From contig CAISDA010000006.1 in the NCBI GenBank assembly GCA_903884005.1, positions 248,001-312,000 of the forward strand: 64,000 bases of DNA, in the 5' to 3' direction. Below the pieces are notes generated by a model. It was given only the letters and a program-made list of their open reading frames with translations, was not told the origin of the DNA and ran no database searches. This DNA comes from an uncultured Ignavibacteriota bacterium. GTDB taxonomy: Bacteria > Bacteroidota > Ignavibacteria > UBA10030 > UBA8401. Numbering within the stretch: position 1 is the stretch's first letter; every line of letters starts with the position of its first letter. This document shows positions 47,267 through 52,074 of the stretch, in pieces. A program made the translations under genes and the position numbers.

Positions 47267-47977
47267 TTATTTCAGAATTCTCGCCGGACGGACGTCGATC
47301 TCGCTTACATTCGTCCGCGCCGGCATCGTCAGCGCAAACAGTGTTGTCTCCGCAATATCCTCCGGCTGTATAATCGTGTGCGCATCCTTCGCGTGATCCG
47401 AGAATTCCGTATTCACCGCTCCCGGACAGATGGTGACCACACGGATATTGTAGTCCCTCACCTCCAGCATGAGCGAACGCGCAAATCCCAGCAGAGCAAA
47501 TTTGGTGGCTGAATACGCGGCACCGCCGACGAACGAGTTCTTCGATGCCAGCGACGCGATATTCACTATTTGCCCGCCGTGCCGCTTGATCATTCCCGGC
47601 AGGAACGCCTTCGTGCAGAGAAAGACGCCGCGCACATTGACATCGAACATGCCGTCGAAATCTTCGAGCTTCATGTCCAGAACTTTTGCAAAGACACCAT
47701 ACCCGGCATTGTTGATGAGGATGTCGGCGCCTCCGAACTGCTGCTCGACCTGAACGGCAAGCTCTGCCACGGAATCCGCCGATCGCACATCGGTGAGGAT
47801 TGCGACGGCCTGGCCTCCCCTGGTCTTGATCGACTCGCGAACCGTTTCCAATCGATTTGCATCCCGCGCCGCAAGCACGACAGTCGCGCCGGCGTCGGCA
47901 AGGGAATTCGCAATGGATTCTCCGATCCCTCTGCTAGCTCCTGTGACAACGGCAATTTTTCCCTTAAGCGATTCCAT
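47267..47977 (-). CDS. SDR family NAD(P)-dependent oxidoreductase (distal pterin-operon copy)
   Basis: This 236-residue classical SDR has TGASRGIG (12-19), NNAG (89-92), catalytic Ser in NIASLAS and YSATK (Y155, K159). It is FabG-like in length. It lies downstream of another SDR, folE and a PTPS on the same strand, so it may act in pterin reduction. The gap to the next SDR contains repeats, so co-transcription is uncertain. The ATG at 47977 fits the family N-terminus. A 3-ketoacyl-ACP reductase role is an alternative. Confidence 0.88.
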   Translation of the reverse strand: MESLKGKIAVVTGASRGIGESIANSLADAGATVVLAARDANRLETVRESIKTRGGQAVAILTDVRSADSVAELAVQVEQQFGGADILINNAGYGVFAKVLDMKLEDFDGMFDVNVRGVFLCTKAFLPGMIKRHGGQIVNIASLASKNSFVGGAAYSATKFALLGFARSLMLEVRDYNIRVVTICPGAVNTEFSDHAKDAHTIIQPEDIAETTLFALTMPARTNVSEIDVRPARILK

Positions 47978-48005: not shown

Positions 48006-48144
48006 CGCACCGCGTGCGCGGTGCAAGTTTTTGTTTGTTACGTACGAGAGATCGCCGTCGCATCGGTGCGCATGTAGGGCGAGATGTTATCTCGCCCGCA
48101 CCGCGTGCGCGGTGCAAGTGTTTATTTGTTGCTTACGAGAGATC
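48006..48144. repeat. 48-nt direct repeat pair with nested palindromes
   Basis: Copies at 48006-48053 and 48097-48144 are nearly identical, 91 nt apart. Each begins with an 8-bp hairpin (GCACCGCG with CGCGGTGC). Between them lies a perfect 9-bp hairpin (48077-48085 with 48089-48097) of the TGTAGGGCGA family. The second copy contains the stop of the upstream SDR gene. Confidence 0.88.
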
Positions 48145-48855
48145 TCCCTCGACCGGCCGTATGATGATCTCATCGGTCGTCATGCGCTCGGGCTGGCAAT
48201 ACAGCGACACGACAACATCGGCCACATCGTCCGGTTGCATCATTTTCGCGCCGAACGTGTCGCGATTTTTCCGGTTCCACATGTCCGTTTCGACTGCGCC
48301 CGGCAGAACATCGATCACACGCACTCCCCGTGTCCGTACTTCCGCGCGCACTCCGCGCATCATCGCCAGCGACGCTGCCTTCGACGCGGCATAGACCGAT
48401 GAATTCTGGAACGTCGTCACAGCAGCCACCGAATGGATCGTGATGATGTGCCCCTTTTTCGCCGCAAGCATAGACGGGAGCACCGCCTGCGTGCAGAGAA
48501 AGACTCCACGGAGGTTCGTTTCGAGAATCGAATCAAATTCGGCCGGCGTCGTGTGCTCGAATTTTTTGAACCGCGTCACCCCCGCATTGTTGACGAGCAC
48601 ATGCACGCGTCCGTATGTTGTCTGTATTTTTTTCATTGCCGCCTGCACACTCTTTGCCGATACAACATCCACCACAACGGCCGTTGCCGATCCCCCCTCG
48701 CTTCGGATGCGCGCTGCCGTTGCCGCAAGCGCTTCCCTGCTTCTTCCGCTGACGATCACATGCGCGCCGATGGCTGCGAATGCATGAGCGATCGCGGCGC
48801 CGATGCCCCGGCCGGCGCCTGTGACCCATACGATCTGTTTCGCATCCATGGTCAT
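48133..48855 (-). CDS. SDR family oxidoreductase next to folE (sepiapterin-reductase-like candidate)
   Basis: This product of about 240 residues has TGAGRGIG (12-19), NNAG (89-92), and YAASK (Y155, K159). The ATG at 48855 overlaps the folE stop (ATGA), so it is tightly coupled to GTP cyclohydrolase I and the PTPS upstream. In tetrahydrobiopterin synthesis the third enzyme is sepiapterin reductase, an SDR; that role here is inference from the operon. An in-frame ATG at 48849 is an alternative start. The stop lies in a direct repeat. Confidence 0.88.
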
Positions 48856-49436
48856 CCCAGTTTGTTCGATATGAGCGTTAAAAATTCGGTGCGCGTCTTG
48901 ATGTTGTCCTGAAAAACACCGAGCATTGTGCTTGTGGTGGCGCTCGAATGCTGCTTCTCGACGCCCCTGATCATCATGCACATGTGGCGGCCTTCAACAA
49001 CCACCGCGACGCCGTCCGGCTTCAGGATGTCCATGAGCGTATCGGCGATCTGGCGCGTCATGCGCTCCTGCACCTGCAACCGCCGCGCGAACATGTCCAC
49101 GATGCGAGGGATCTTGCTCAGGCCGATGATCTTCCCGTTCGGGATGTACGCGACATGCGCTTTCCCGTAGAACGGCAGCAGATGATGCTCGCATGTGCTC
49201 ACAAAGTCGATGTCCTTCACGATCACCATTTCTTTGTACTCTTCCGTGAAGAGCGCTCCGTTGACGATCGTCTTGATGCTCTCGGAGTATCCTTTGGTGA
49301 GATAGTGAAGCGATTTTGCGACGCGCGAGGGTGTCTTGAGCAGCCCTTCCCGTTCGGGATCCTCCTTCAAATGTATCAGCAGATCGTGCACGAGGTCTTC
49401 CAGGCTCAGTCCCGTTGTTAATTTTTTTGGCTTCAA
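48852..49436 (-). CDS. folE: GTP cyclohydrolase I
   Basis: This 194-residue enzyme converts GTP to dihydroneopterin triphosphate. Zinc ligands are C82 and H85 in CEHHLLPF and C153 in GRHMCM. The active-site [19 protein letters not shown] and QERMTRQIA stretches are intact. The start is a TTG at 49436 behind AGGGAGAA, overlapping the PTPS stop. It can feed folate or, with the PTPS and an SDR, biopterin-type cofactors. Confidence 0.96.
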
Positions 49437-49855
49437 CTGTGTTCTCCCTTGTATTCCGCAAAATTCTGTTCCGTTTCGTACAGCCGTACAGCGTACAGAT
49501 GTCCGTTGAGGATGTGCGGTTCGAGCTGGTTCCAGCATGCCACCGCGATGTTCTCGGCGGTGGGTATGATGCCGCGTAAAAATTCGACATCCATATTCAA
49601 ATGTTTATGATCGACATGCGCGATAACATGCTCGTCGATGATCGCTTTCAGCTTTTTAAGGTCCATCACGTATCCCGTCCGGGGATCCGGCTCGCCGGCG
49701 ACGGTGACTTCGATATAATAGTTGTGCCCGTGGCCGTTCACGCTGGCGCATTTATCGAACACTGCTTCGTTCTCGCGATCGCTGAATGAAGGATTGAACA
49801 GCCTGTGTGCGGCGCTGAAGTGGGCACGGCGCGTGACGTACAGAAGAGAAGGCAT
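49433..49855 (-). CDS. 6-pyruvoyl-tetrahydropterin synthase (PTPS-II type)
   Basis: This 140-residue protein has all the active-site residues of mammalian PTPS at a constant offset of 6: zinc ligands H17, H42, H44; catalytic C36, D82 and H83; pterin-binding E127. The Cys-to-His spacing is CX5HGH, the BH4 type, not the CX3HGH of Que[36 protein letters not shown] and [13 protein letters not shown] resemble the mammalian enzyme closely. It lies directly upstream of folE. A queuosine (QueD) role is less likely. No queC/queE are near. Confidence 0.9.
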
Positions 49856-50094: not shown

Positions 50095-50631
50095 TTACAA
50101 TGTCGCTTCGCCCTTGTGCCAGTTGCACGGGGTCAGTTCGCCCGTCTGCAGCGCGTCGAGCACGCGGATTGTTTCATCGATATTCCGGCCCACGCTCAGG
50201 TCGTTCACGCTCACCCAGCGTATCGTATTTTCTGGGTCCACGATGAACGTGGCGCGCAGCGCAACCTGATCGGCTCCCGTTAAGATACCGAGTTTCGTCG
50301 TCAACGTCTTTGCATGATCGGACACCATGGGGAATTTCAATTCCTTCAGATCCGGATGATTGTCGCGCCATGCAAGGTGCACATACGCCGTGTCCGTGCT
50401 GCCGCCGAGCAGCACCGTGCCGCGGGCGCTGAACTCGGAGAGCTTGTCGCTGAACCCTTTGATCTCCGTCGGACACACAAACGTAAAATCCTTGGGCCAG
50501 AAAAAGAACACAAGCCATTTTTTATTCTTAAGGATATCCGCAGATTTGATGATCTTGAATTCCTTGCCTGCGGCACGCGAAACGCACGCCTCTAACGCAA
50601 ATTCGGGAAATTTATCGCCTATTGTTAACAT
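50095..50631 (-). CDS. ahpC: AhpC/TSA-family peroxiredoxin
   Basis: This 178-residue 2-Cys peroxiredoxin has the peroxidatic Cys in FTFVCPTEI (C53) and a resolving Cys in LTPCNWHKGE (C169). It reduces peroxides with an unidentified electron donor. It appears to be the end of a run of peroxiredoxin genes on the minus strand (ahpE-like, rhodanese, bcp, ahpC). Confidence 0.93.
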   Translation of the reverse strand: MLTIGDKFPEFALEACVSRAAGKEFKIIKSADILKNKKWLVFFFWPKDFTFVCPTEIKGFSDKLSEFSARGTVLLGGSTDTAYVHLAWRDNHPDLKELKFPMVSDHAKTLTTKLGILTGADQVALRATFIVDPENTIRWVSVNDLSVGRNIDETIRVLDALQTGELTPCNWHKGEATL

Positions 50632-50664: not shown

Positions 50665-51126
50665 CTACTCCAATGCATTGAGTACTTCTTCGGTATGTCC
50701 GTCGATCTTGACCTTCGGAAAAATATGCGTGATATACCCTGTCTCATCGATGATCACTGTCGTCCGTTCGACTCCCATGTATTTCCTGCCGTAGAGGCTC
50801 TTCTCTCTCCAAATGCCGTACGGCTCGAGGATTGTTTTGTCTTCATCGCTCAGGAGGAGAAAATTCAGTCCCTGTTTTTCAATGAATTTTTTGTGCGATG
50901 GGATACTGTCCGGACTGACGCCGATGACGACCGCGCCTTTGTCGGTGATCGCGGTGATATTGTCGCGGAACGAGCACGCTTCCTTGATGCAGCCCGAGGT
51001 GTTGTCCTTCGGATAGAAATAGAGCACGACTTTTTTTCCGAGGAACTCTTTGAGCGAGTGTTTTTTTCCGTCGCTTCCTTGAAGCGTGAAGGCCGATGCT
51101 TTTTTACCGACGCGTAGTTCTGCCAT
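50665..51126 (-). CDS. bcp: Bcp-type peroxiredoxin (thiol peroxidase)
   Basis: This 153-residue enzyme has peroxidatic Cys46 in NTSGCIKEAC and a second Cys at 51, the Bcp/PrxQ pattern of Cys separated by four residues. The family usually has TPGC; the Pro is Ser here. It reduces organic and hydrogen peroxides with thioredoxin. It lies 33 nt before ahpC. Confidence 0.94.
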   Translation of the reverse strand: MAELRVGKKASAFTLQGSDGKKHSLKEFLGKKVVLYFYPKDNTSGCIKEACSFRDNITAITDKGAVVIGVSPDSIPSHKKFIEKQGLNFLLLSDEDKTILEPYGIWREKSLYGRKYMGVERTTVIIDETGYITHIFPKVKIDGHTEEVLNALE

Positions 51127-51227: not shown

Positions 51228-51536
51228 TTAATATTTTTCAAGCGACTCGTCGATTGCAGAACACGCGTCGATGCCTCCCTCGAGGTTGAATACCTCTTGC
51301 CATCCCTTGTCCTGAAGGAACATGCACGCCTGCTGACTGCGCACTCCCGTATGACAATACACGATGATGGTTTTGTCTGCGGGCACTTCCTTCAACCGGA
51401 AAGGGATCGAACTCAACGGTATGAGCGTCGCGCCGGGAAGATGGACGATGTCAAACTCCCATTGTTCCCGCACATCGAGCAGCACGGTATCACCGACCGC
51501 GCGCAGCGCCTCTTCGGCTGTCACGTTCCGTATCAT
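51228..51536 (-). CDS. Single-domain rhodanese-like sulfurtransferase
   Basis: This 102-residue protein has the rhodanese active loop VYCHTGVRS with catalytic Cys61 and the LLDVREQWEFDIVHLPGA motif. It may carry sulfane sulfur. The start at 51536 overlaps the upstream peroxiredoxin stop (TGATG), so it is coupled to it. Confidence 0.93.
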   Translation of the reverse strand: MIRNVTAEEALRAVGDTVLLDVREQWEFDIVHLPGATLIPLSSIPFRLKEVPADKTIIVYCHTGVRSQQACMFLQDKGWQEVFNLEGGIDACSAIDESLEKY

Positions 51537-52000
51537 CAGGCAACGGCTTTCTGTACTTCGTCGTATGGAGGTTCCACACCGGGATTCTCCGAAACCCATG
51601 CGTAAGTCACAATGCCTGCCCCGTCCACGACATAGACGGAACGCTTTGCCGCTTCATACCCCGGGATGCCCGCAAAATTTTCATGCACTCCGCCGTATGC
51701 TTTCGATGCTTCCCGATTGACATCCGAGAGGATCGGGAACGTCACCTGGTTCTTATCGGCAAACGCCTTGTTGGCAAACGGACTGTCAACGCTCACACCC
51801 ACCACCTGGGCGTCCACCGTATTGAACTGTGCGAGCGAGTCGCGGAATGCGCATAGCTCTTTTTCACAAACCCCTGTGAATGCTCCCGGAAAAAATACCA
51901 ACACGACTTTTTTTCCTGAAAATTCGCCGAGCGATCGGGGTGCGCGTGCTGTATCGACAAGTGTAAACTGGGGAGCTGTGGATCCGACTGATAGGGCCAT
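51536..52000 (-). CDS. AhpE-like/redoxin-family peroxiredoxin
   Basis: This 154-residue protein has the peroxidatic Cys45 in FFPGAFTGVCEKELC and a second Cys at 50. It differs from Bcp and AhpC in the same window and is closer to the AhpE/PrxQ group. An AGGAG site precedes the ATG at 52000. A dyad that could be a regulator site lies about 75 nt upstream. Confidence 0.88.
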   Translation of the reverse strand: MALSVGSTAPQFTLVDTARAPRSLGEFSGKKVVLVFFPGAFTGVCEKELCAFRDSLAQFNTVDAQVVGVSVDSPFANKAFADKNQVTFPILSDVNREASKAYGGVHENFAGIPGYEAAKRSVYVVDGAGIVTYAWVSENPGVEPPYDEVQKAVA

Positions 52001-52074
52001 GAACGTTCTCCTGTGATTGAGTGTAAGTAGGTTGTAGTGCAGATTCAAGACTTATAACACTCTCCGTATCCGAA

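Follow-up and report, generated by a model that had tools for sequence, protein, structure and literature searches.

A putative tetrahydrobiopterin pathway encoded next to peroxiredoxin genes in an uncultured Ignavibacteriota bacterium

Tetrahydrobiopterin (BH4) is a cofactor familiar above all from animals; the pathway of its synthesis is already known from animals, cyanobacteria and Chlorobium. Biopterin is rare in bacteria and archaea according to an extract of a 2026 review (PMC13259868), and about 50 bacterial proteins of COG0720 were predicted to act in BH4 synthesis, as given in an extract of a 2016 paper (PMC5041015). The latter extract assigns the motif CxxxxxHGH to the second type of 6-pyruvoyl-tetrahydropterin synthase (PTPS-II) and the motif ExxHGH to PTPS-III. 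In the sepiapterin reductase (SR) of Chlorobium tepidum, F99 and W196 are described as indispensable for binding the substrate in the excerpt available of a further study (PMC7520308). We obtained a PTPS match (E ≤ 1e-8) in 175 of the 197 sampled genomes of one class, the weakest of which, near 1e-9, may be QueD. The hydroxylase family PF00351 was found in 20 of these genomes and NOS in none.

Here we analysed a stretch of 64,000 nucleotides from an uncultured Ignavibacteriota bacterium, hereafter the window. The source genome (4.53 Mb in 89 contigs) has a listed completeness of 100% and a contamination of 0.37%. A previous reading of this DNA, made from its letters alone (the sequence-only reading), had proposed a three-step BH4 pathway in a Chlorobi setting. 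The setting was near the mark, as the relatives carry the labels Bacteroidota, Bacteroidetes, Ignavibacteria or Chlorobiota; that the source is a green sulfur bacterium was not borne out. The pathway itself is supported by a separate QueD in the genome, by a PTPS that is nearest to animal PTPS, and by a first SDR that is nearest, among solved SDRs, to the SR of C. tepidum. As far as can be judged from sequence, the window genes very probably encode this pathway; the grade is for BH4 synthesis and covers neither the isomer nor the role of the peroxiredoxins. FolE would convert GTP to dihydroneopterin triphosphate, PTPS-II would turn the latter into 6-pyruvoyl-tetrahydropterin, and the first SDR would convert this intermediate to BH4, perhaps as the L-threo isomer. 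The second SDR (SDR2) would probably act either as a further carbonyl reductase or in the recycling of dihydropteridine.

Layout of the locus and its PTPS

The open reading frames and Pfam matches of the window place PTPS, FolE and the first SDR in tight order on the minus strand, with SDR2 downstream. The PTPS gene (49433..49855, minus strand) encodes a 140 aa protein of the PTPS-II type with CX5HGH (Pfam PTPS, 124.8 bits). It is followed by folE, encoding GTP cyclohydrolase I (48852..49436, minus strand; Pfam GTP_cyclohydroI, 253.5 bits), for which we took a TTG start. This start is overlapped by the PTPS stop in the tetranucleotide TTGA (49436-49433); with the alternative start, an in-frame ATG at 49538, the overlap with PTPS would grow. 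The stop of folE in turn shares the tetranucleotide ATGA (48855-48852) with an in-frame ATG of the first SDR gene; this gene is of the SR type, spans 48133..48855 on the minus strand and has a further ATG at 48849. SDR2 (47267..47977, minus strand) belongs to a separate SDR group and comes 155 bp after the first; Pfam adh_short matches the two SDRs with 195 and 205.7 bits. The coordinates and gene anatomy given by the sequence-only reading were correct, including the place of the second SDR after the first and, if the TTGA and ATGA starts are used, both overlaps. Between the SDR genes lie two copies of an 18-bp near-palindrome (GCACCGCGTGCGCGGTGC; 48007..48115). With two mismatches or fewer allowed, the window contains no further match to it, and four matches were reached in none of 100 shuffles.

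The region upstream of PTPS holds three peroxiredoxin genes and one rhodanese gene, all on the strand of PTPS. The nearest encodes an AhpC-like peroxiredoxin with an AhpC-TSA domain (50095..50631, minus strand), lies 239 bp upstream of PTPS and scores 135.6 bits with TIGR03137, below the cut-off of 272. It is preceded by a PrxQ/BCP thioredoxin-dependent thiol peroxidase (50665..51126, minus strand; NCBIfam PRK09437, 155.7 bits for a cut-off of 140) and by a rhodanese-domain protein (51228..51599, minus strand), given here as the longest ORF, the real start of which may be further downstream. The last is an AhpC/TSA-family peroxiredoxin (51536..52048, minus strand), presumably AhpE-like, as we labelled it, which passes no NCBIfam cut-off. 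The genes of the cluster are presumably transcribed jointly.

The window PTPS carries the motif CASVNGHGH, i.e., CX5HGH. We assumed the position numbering of rat PTPS and the roles of H23, H48, H50, C42, D88, H89 and E133 as zinc ligands and catalytic residues. The window PTPS has the same residue as the rat enzyme at nine of the ten positions checked, always with an offset of exactly 6 (H23, C42, H48, H50, D88, H89, T105, E107 and E133), which agrees with the earlier claim of active-site residues at that fixed offset. The tenth, T106, is Ala in the window, and Ala is the commonest letter there (67 of the 117 related PTPS). All seven zinc-ligand and catalytic letters are thus present at offset 6, but the same seven occur in the QueD of the genome and do not discriminate between PTPS and QueD.

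Comparison with PDB shows that the nearest relatives of the window PTPS are biochemically known PTPS and not QueD. It matches 3i2b, 1b66 and 2g64, which we take to be the human, rat and C. elegans PTPS, with 134, 129 and 103 bits, and other solved relatives with at most 52 bits. Its identity is 47% to rat PTPS over 132 residues and 35% to the genome's own QueD over 80 residues. Both curated NCBIfam models that it matches are scored below their cut-offs (103.6 against 125.5 for TIGR00039, 70 against 89.25 for QueD). The protein is predicted to form 6-pyruvoyl-tetrahydropterin.

The sequence-only reading had also held that CX5HGH separates PTPS-II from QueD. The motif is present, and the genome's own QueD has CX3HGH, but the spacing is not strictly diagnostic: four of the 117 related PTPS have CX3HGH and yet are 51-55% identical to the window PTPS over their length. 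These PTPS-II-like proteins, which carry a two-residue deletion, are encoded in L020 and L027 (PTPS at ~6.0-6.4 kb) and in L123 and L124 (~8.0-8.4 kb). The stretches around the four PTPS genes contain no homologues of QueC, QueE or QueF. The spacing motif alone would therefore misclassify these proteins.

Variants of the PTPS gene itself were seen at other loci. Tandem PTPS pairs stand ahead of folE in four Bacteroidetes loci (L023, L025, L026 and L028, of which L026 is from Chitinophagales and L028 from Lacibacter), and ahead of an SDR in L022, a locus labelled Cyanobacteria. The PTPS of Planctomycetota (L031, L033-L039) lies within longer open frames (longest ORFs of ~269-305 aa), which may correspond to an N-terminal extension or a fusion.

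The two SDRs

The best PDB match of the first SDR is 2bd0, a "sepiapterin reductase", with 157 bits (the next has 138). We take 2bd0 to be the C. tepidum enzyme; it has F at position 99 and W at position 196. If the first SDR is numbered from the ATG at 48849, its F94, W191 and D236 correspond in the alignment to F99, W196 and the C-terminal Asp of that enzyme. The Ser-Tyr-Lys triad is kept together with these three residues (SFYKWD). Among the first SDRs of 60 loci, a few of which are fragments, F99 is found in 55, W196 in 56 and the C-terminal Asp in 48. The 33 second SDRs have F99 in 29 cases, W196 in one (L079_2, an SR by score) and the C-terminal Asp in L079_2 and L115_2. These counts retain the rows L003_2, L056_1, L079_1, L017_1 and L018_1. 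The SDR2 of the window has S instead of W196 and L instead of the C-terminal Asp, and all three residues are absent from E. coli FabG, FolM and YdfG. The earlier suggestion that the first SDR could be a sepiapterin reductase is supported by its best match and its SR residues; the second lacks W196 and the terminal Asp. The first SDR is below the cut-offs of all 25 NCBIfam models listed.

We built a tree of 56 SDR rows, excluding the five rows named above as fragmentary or divergent; SDRs from many other loci are not part of it either. The SR clade holds 28 of the 30 rows so labelled (support 96/86) and the SDR2 clade 21 of 22 (support 99/94). C. tepidum SR falls outside both and pairs, weakly supported, with an SDR from Opitutaceae. 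In AU tests on a second tree (36 rows), the grouping of 2bd0 with the SR group was not rejected (p-AU 0.47) and its grouping with the SDR2 group was marginally rejected (p-AU 0.046); in this tree the long branch of E. coli FabG was placed among the SR rows. The SR profile (A1) has a match at E ≤ 1e-60 in at most 153 of the 197 class genomes, some of them without an SDR adjoining PTPS. This number is an upper bound and weaker matches are ambiguous, because second SDRs reach ~1e-66 with the same profile (G028).

The BH4 isomer is perhaps L-threo, because F99 and W196 of C. tepidum SR are kept in the first SDR; the proposal rests on these two residues. An L-erythro-biopterin glycoside from Chlorobium limicola is named in a title of the reference list of PMC3546692.

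Two loci of family f5 (L082 and L107) have clusters with SDR2 only, L082 being the only such case among the flanked loci. The SR profile at 1e-60 has no match in the six f5 genomes listed. Hence, SDR2 may replace the sepiapterin reductase in this family.

Linkage with peroxiredoxins across the class

The linkage with peroxiredoxins is a pattern that goes beyond what the sequence-only reading had observed. We studied loci from 80 of the 175 matching genomes, hand-picked among the matches listed and mostly one per genus, so that weak matches are under-represented. Counts that involve both flanks concern 73 of the resulting 81 loci (the 80 and the window). Neighbours were labelled with phmmer, using one seed each, at E ≤ 1e-8. 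The 118 PTPS loci analysed in all include a first set of relatives that overlaps partly with the class set (L006/L050, L008/L061, L009/L047).

Peroxiredoxin and SDR genes were either both present (43 of the 73 loci) or both absent (30), and never found one without the other. PrxQ is encoded in 46 of the 78 loci with at least 2 kb upstream, and 40 of these loci have the second peroxiredoxin too, within 2.7 kb. Downstream, the 76 loci with at least 3 kb of sequence have FolE in 72 cases, the first SDR in 44 and SDR2 in 28. The 43 loci with peroxiredoxin and SDR encode both SDRs (25), the first only (17) or the second only (1). When longest-ORF starts are used, the gap between PrxQ and PTPS is at most 33 bp, overlaps included, in 31 of the 43 loci; the window is not among them, its AhpC-like gene lying in between. 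The slot ahead of PTPS is occupied by an AhpC-like peroxiredoxin in four of the 43 loci and by an aquaporin in two.

Several other neighbours recur. An aquaporin-family (MIP) gene stands directly upstream of PTPS, where the window has its AhpC-like gene, in L004 (5306-6004, checked with Pfam), L005, L011, L019, L030, L032, L072 and L097. In nine of the 118 loci, SDR2 is followed by genes for FAD or NAD reductases, as judged by Pfam on two representatives. Another family, whose representative is an ECF-type sigma factor, recurs in 18 of the 56 peroxiredoxin-type loci at ~3 kb downstream of PTPS (L052 4774-5313 and similar). In 22 of 32 class loci without a peroxiredoxin, PTPS-folE is followed by a gene whose representative is of the ribonuclease HII type (L047 9303-9929 and similar).

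The occurrence of the pathway genes with peroxiredoxins in many genera suggests that the use or handling of BH4 coincides with oxygen and peroxide chemistry, and the company of the genes points to chemistry of one or the other kind. Tetrahydropterins autoxidise, and uncoupled hydroxylases release H2O2. A tentative explanation, compatible with BH4 synthesis, is that the peroxiredoxins serve self-protection, the makers of BH4 being encoded with peroxide scavengers while BH4 itself stands outside peroxide defence. This would account for the short distance between PrxQ and PTPS and for the presence of PrxQ in all six clusters of family f24 (see below) in which a hydroxylase was read. It would also fit the proposal that the toxicity of reduced pterins could stem from their autoxidation in media, leading to oxidative stress (PMC12327612, in the extract at hand). 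However, 30 of the 73 loci have no adjoining peroxiredoxin, and some of the genomes concerned have a strong SR-profile match elsewhere (e.g., G081 and G054, ~305 bits). Hence, the linkage is not needed everywhere.

It is possible, if doubtful, that the linkage is an inherited gene order derived from one ancestral block and has little functional meaning, which is also compatible with BH4 synthesis. The well-supported branches of the PTPS tree give only one independent pair for the linkage, and all branches together give five; these numbers are too small to test for independent origins. No peroxiredoxin was found at the loci of Rhodothermales, Chitinophagales, Gemmatimonadota and Planctomycetota, several of which have less than 2 kb upstream, and the linkage seems bound to the lineage of the window. 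Yet the next most frequent same-strand families reach only 18 of the 56 peroxiredoxin-type loci, a comparison that is biased since these loci were chosen for their peroxiredoxin. A further ORF family, which lies on the opposite strand and may be a shadow ORF, is found in 26 of the 56. The PTPS of peroxiredoxin-type loci goes down to ~54% identity to that of the window.

We regard it as rather unlikely that BH4 is a dedicated redox cofactor of oxygen or peroxide defence. PrxQ and AhpC-type peroxiredoxins, and the aquaporin and FAD/NAD reductases of some relatives, would then work with BH4 and its recycling, and the link with the hydroxylase in f24 would be a lineage-specific use. If true, BH4 would have a bacterial function beyond hydroxylases, NOS and ether-lipid cleavage, the users named in the literature found. 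BH4 scavenges several radicals more reactively than ascorbate (PMC10215290, in excerpt). Trypanosomatids have an unexplained requirement for pterins, for which an antioxidant role is doubted as the essential one in the part available of PMC12327612, and the peroxiredoxin-BH4 cluster bears on this requirement. We found no description of such a cluster in the open-licence literature, among the matches listed. Its recurrence makes it a testable lead to the function of BH4 in bacteria.

BH4 users, pterin glycosides and other readings

Known BH4 users were searched as PF00351 (Biopterin_H), NOS and FA_hydroxylase, the family of AGMO, and none was found in the genome of the window. PF00351 has no match in 40 relatives either; the search for FA_hydroxylase covered the genome of the window alone. 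PCD also has no match in this genome. It is found in 166 of the 197 class genomes, far from the 20 with a hydroxylase, so PCD is not distributed as the hydroxylase is, and little can be concluded from the absence of PCD here.

The hydroxylase is part of the cluster in family f24, where each of the eight PF00351 genes shares the strand of PTPS and stands within ~2.1 kb upstream of it, measured centre to centre. For six of them the loci themselves were read and gave positions of -1.1 to -2.0 kb; those of G155 and G159 were placed from coordinates. The one f24 hydroxylase scanned passes the cut-off for phenylalanine 4-monooxygenase (284 against 247 bits). The PF00351 gene is away from the PTPS cluster in family f7 (nine genomes), and three further genomes with PF00351 belong to f10. 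The arrangement in f24 supports the idea that the cluster makes the hydroxylase cofactor. Bacterial phenylalanine hydroxylases may use other pterins, but BH4 fits best because the cluster encodes PTPS-II and SR.

As the genome of the window has no match for the BH4-user families searched, a different tetrahydropterin could be the product. We consider it improbable that the genes make such a compound or a glycoside, e.g., the N-acetylglucosaminyl biopterin of C. tepidum, instead of free BH4. BH4 glycosides have been reported from C. tepidum (PMC5683033), and the sequence-only reading had evoked pterin glycosides, an idea that gained no support from our searches. The pteridine glycosyltransferase of C. 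tepidum (Q8KE51) has no match at E ≤ 1e-30 in 39 of 41 genomes, that of the window included; its matches in the other two genomes show 39% and 45% identity. Another glycosyltransferase could act.

The genome contains two PTPS-family matches, the window PTPS and a gene with CX3HGH on contig C34, which lies beside queF, queE and queC (locus L002). The search for queC and queE proposed by the sequence-only reading therefore led to a separate queC-queE-queD-queF locus. In this locus only QueF passes its curated NCBIfam cut-off; QueD scores 81.3 against 89.25, and QueE and QueC are below theirs, the QueC frame scored being a fragment. No homologues of QueC, QueE or QueF occur within the stretches examined at the 118 PTPS loci, the window locus included. 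The sequence-only reading had named, as one case against it, a PTPS that groups with QueD in a genome whose complete queuosine pathway lies next to no other queD; we found animal PTPS nearest, and a distinct QueD among the que genes.

It is scarcely credible that the window PTPS is a QueD for queuosine and that the SDRs are FabG-type reductases: PTPS and QueD belong to one Pfam family, and both SDRs reach high scores, though below cut-offs, with the general NCBIfam models of SDR and FabG, but the other QueD-like gene is the one that adjoins queC, queE and queF, the window PTPS has 134 bits to animal PTPS and CX5HGH in place of CxxxHGH, and E. coli FabG lacks the SR residues kept in the first SDR, which matches 2bd0 best. 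Equally far from credible is a PTPS-III that bypasses FolB for folate, for although PTPS adjoins the only folE, FolB is present (121.5 bits) and ExxHGH is replaced by VNGHGH. As the sole PF01227 match in the genome, the window folE probably supplies the folate and queuosine pathways as well.

Comparison with known systems

Four known systems come nearest to BH4 synthesis as proposed here, the reading we prefer. The PTPS-II of Synechococcus PCC 7942, for which canonical PTPS activity in vitro is reported in the extract of PMC5041015, has CxxxxxHGH in common with the window PTPS; that extract makes no mention of a peroxiredoxin-linked cluster. The bacterial phenylalanine hydroxylase systems are approached by f24, with its PF00351 gene in the same cluster, whereas Biopterin_H is absent from the window's genome and 40 relatives. 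The animal pathway (GCH1, PTPS and SPR) follows the same three steps, and the window PTPS is 47% identical to the rat enzyme. Yet the reductase of the window is nearest to the Chlorobium enzyme, and its genome has no matches for hydroxylase, NOS or FA_hydroxylase. The Chlorobiaceae locus L029 encodes PTPS-FolE with neither SDR nor peroxiredoxin within 12.4 kb. The window shares with the L-threo-BH4 pathway of C. tepidum an SDR with F99, W196 and the C-terminal Asp; it differs from it in having no glycosyltransferase match at 1e-30 and in that its genes form one cluster with peroxiredoxins.
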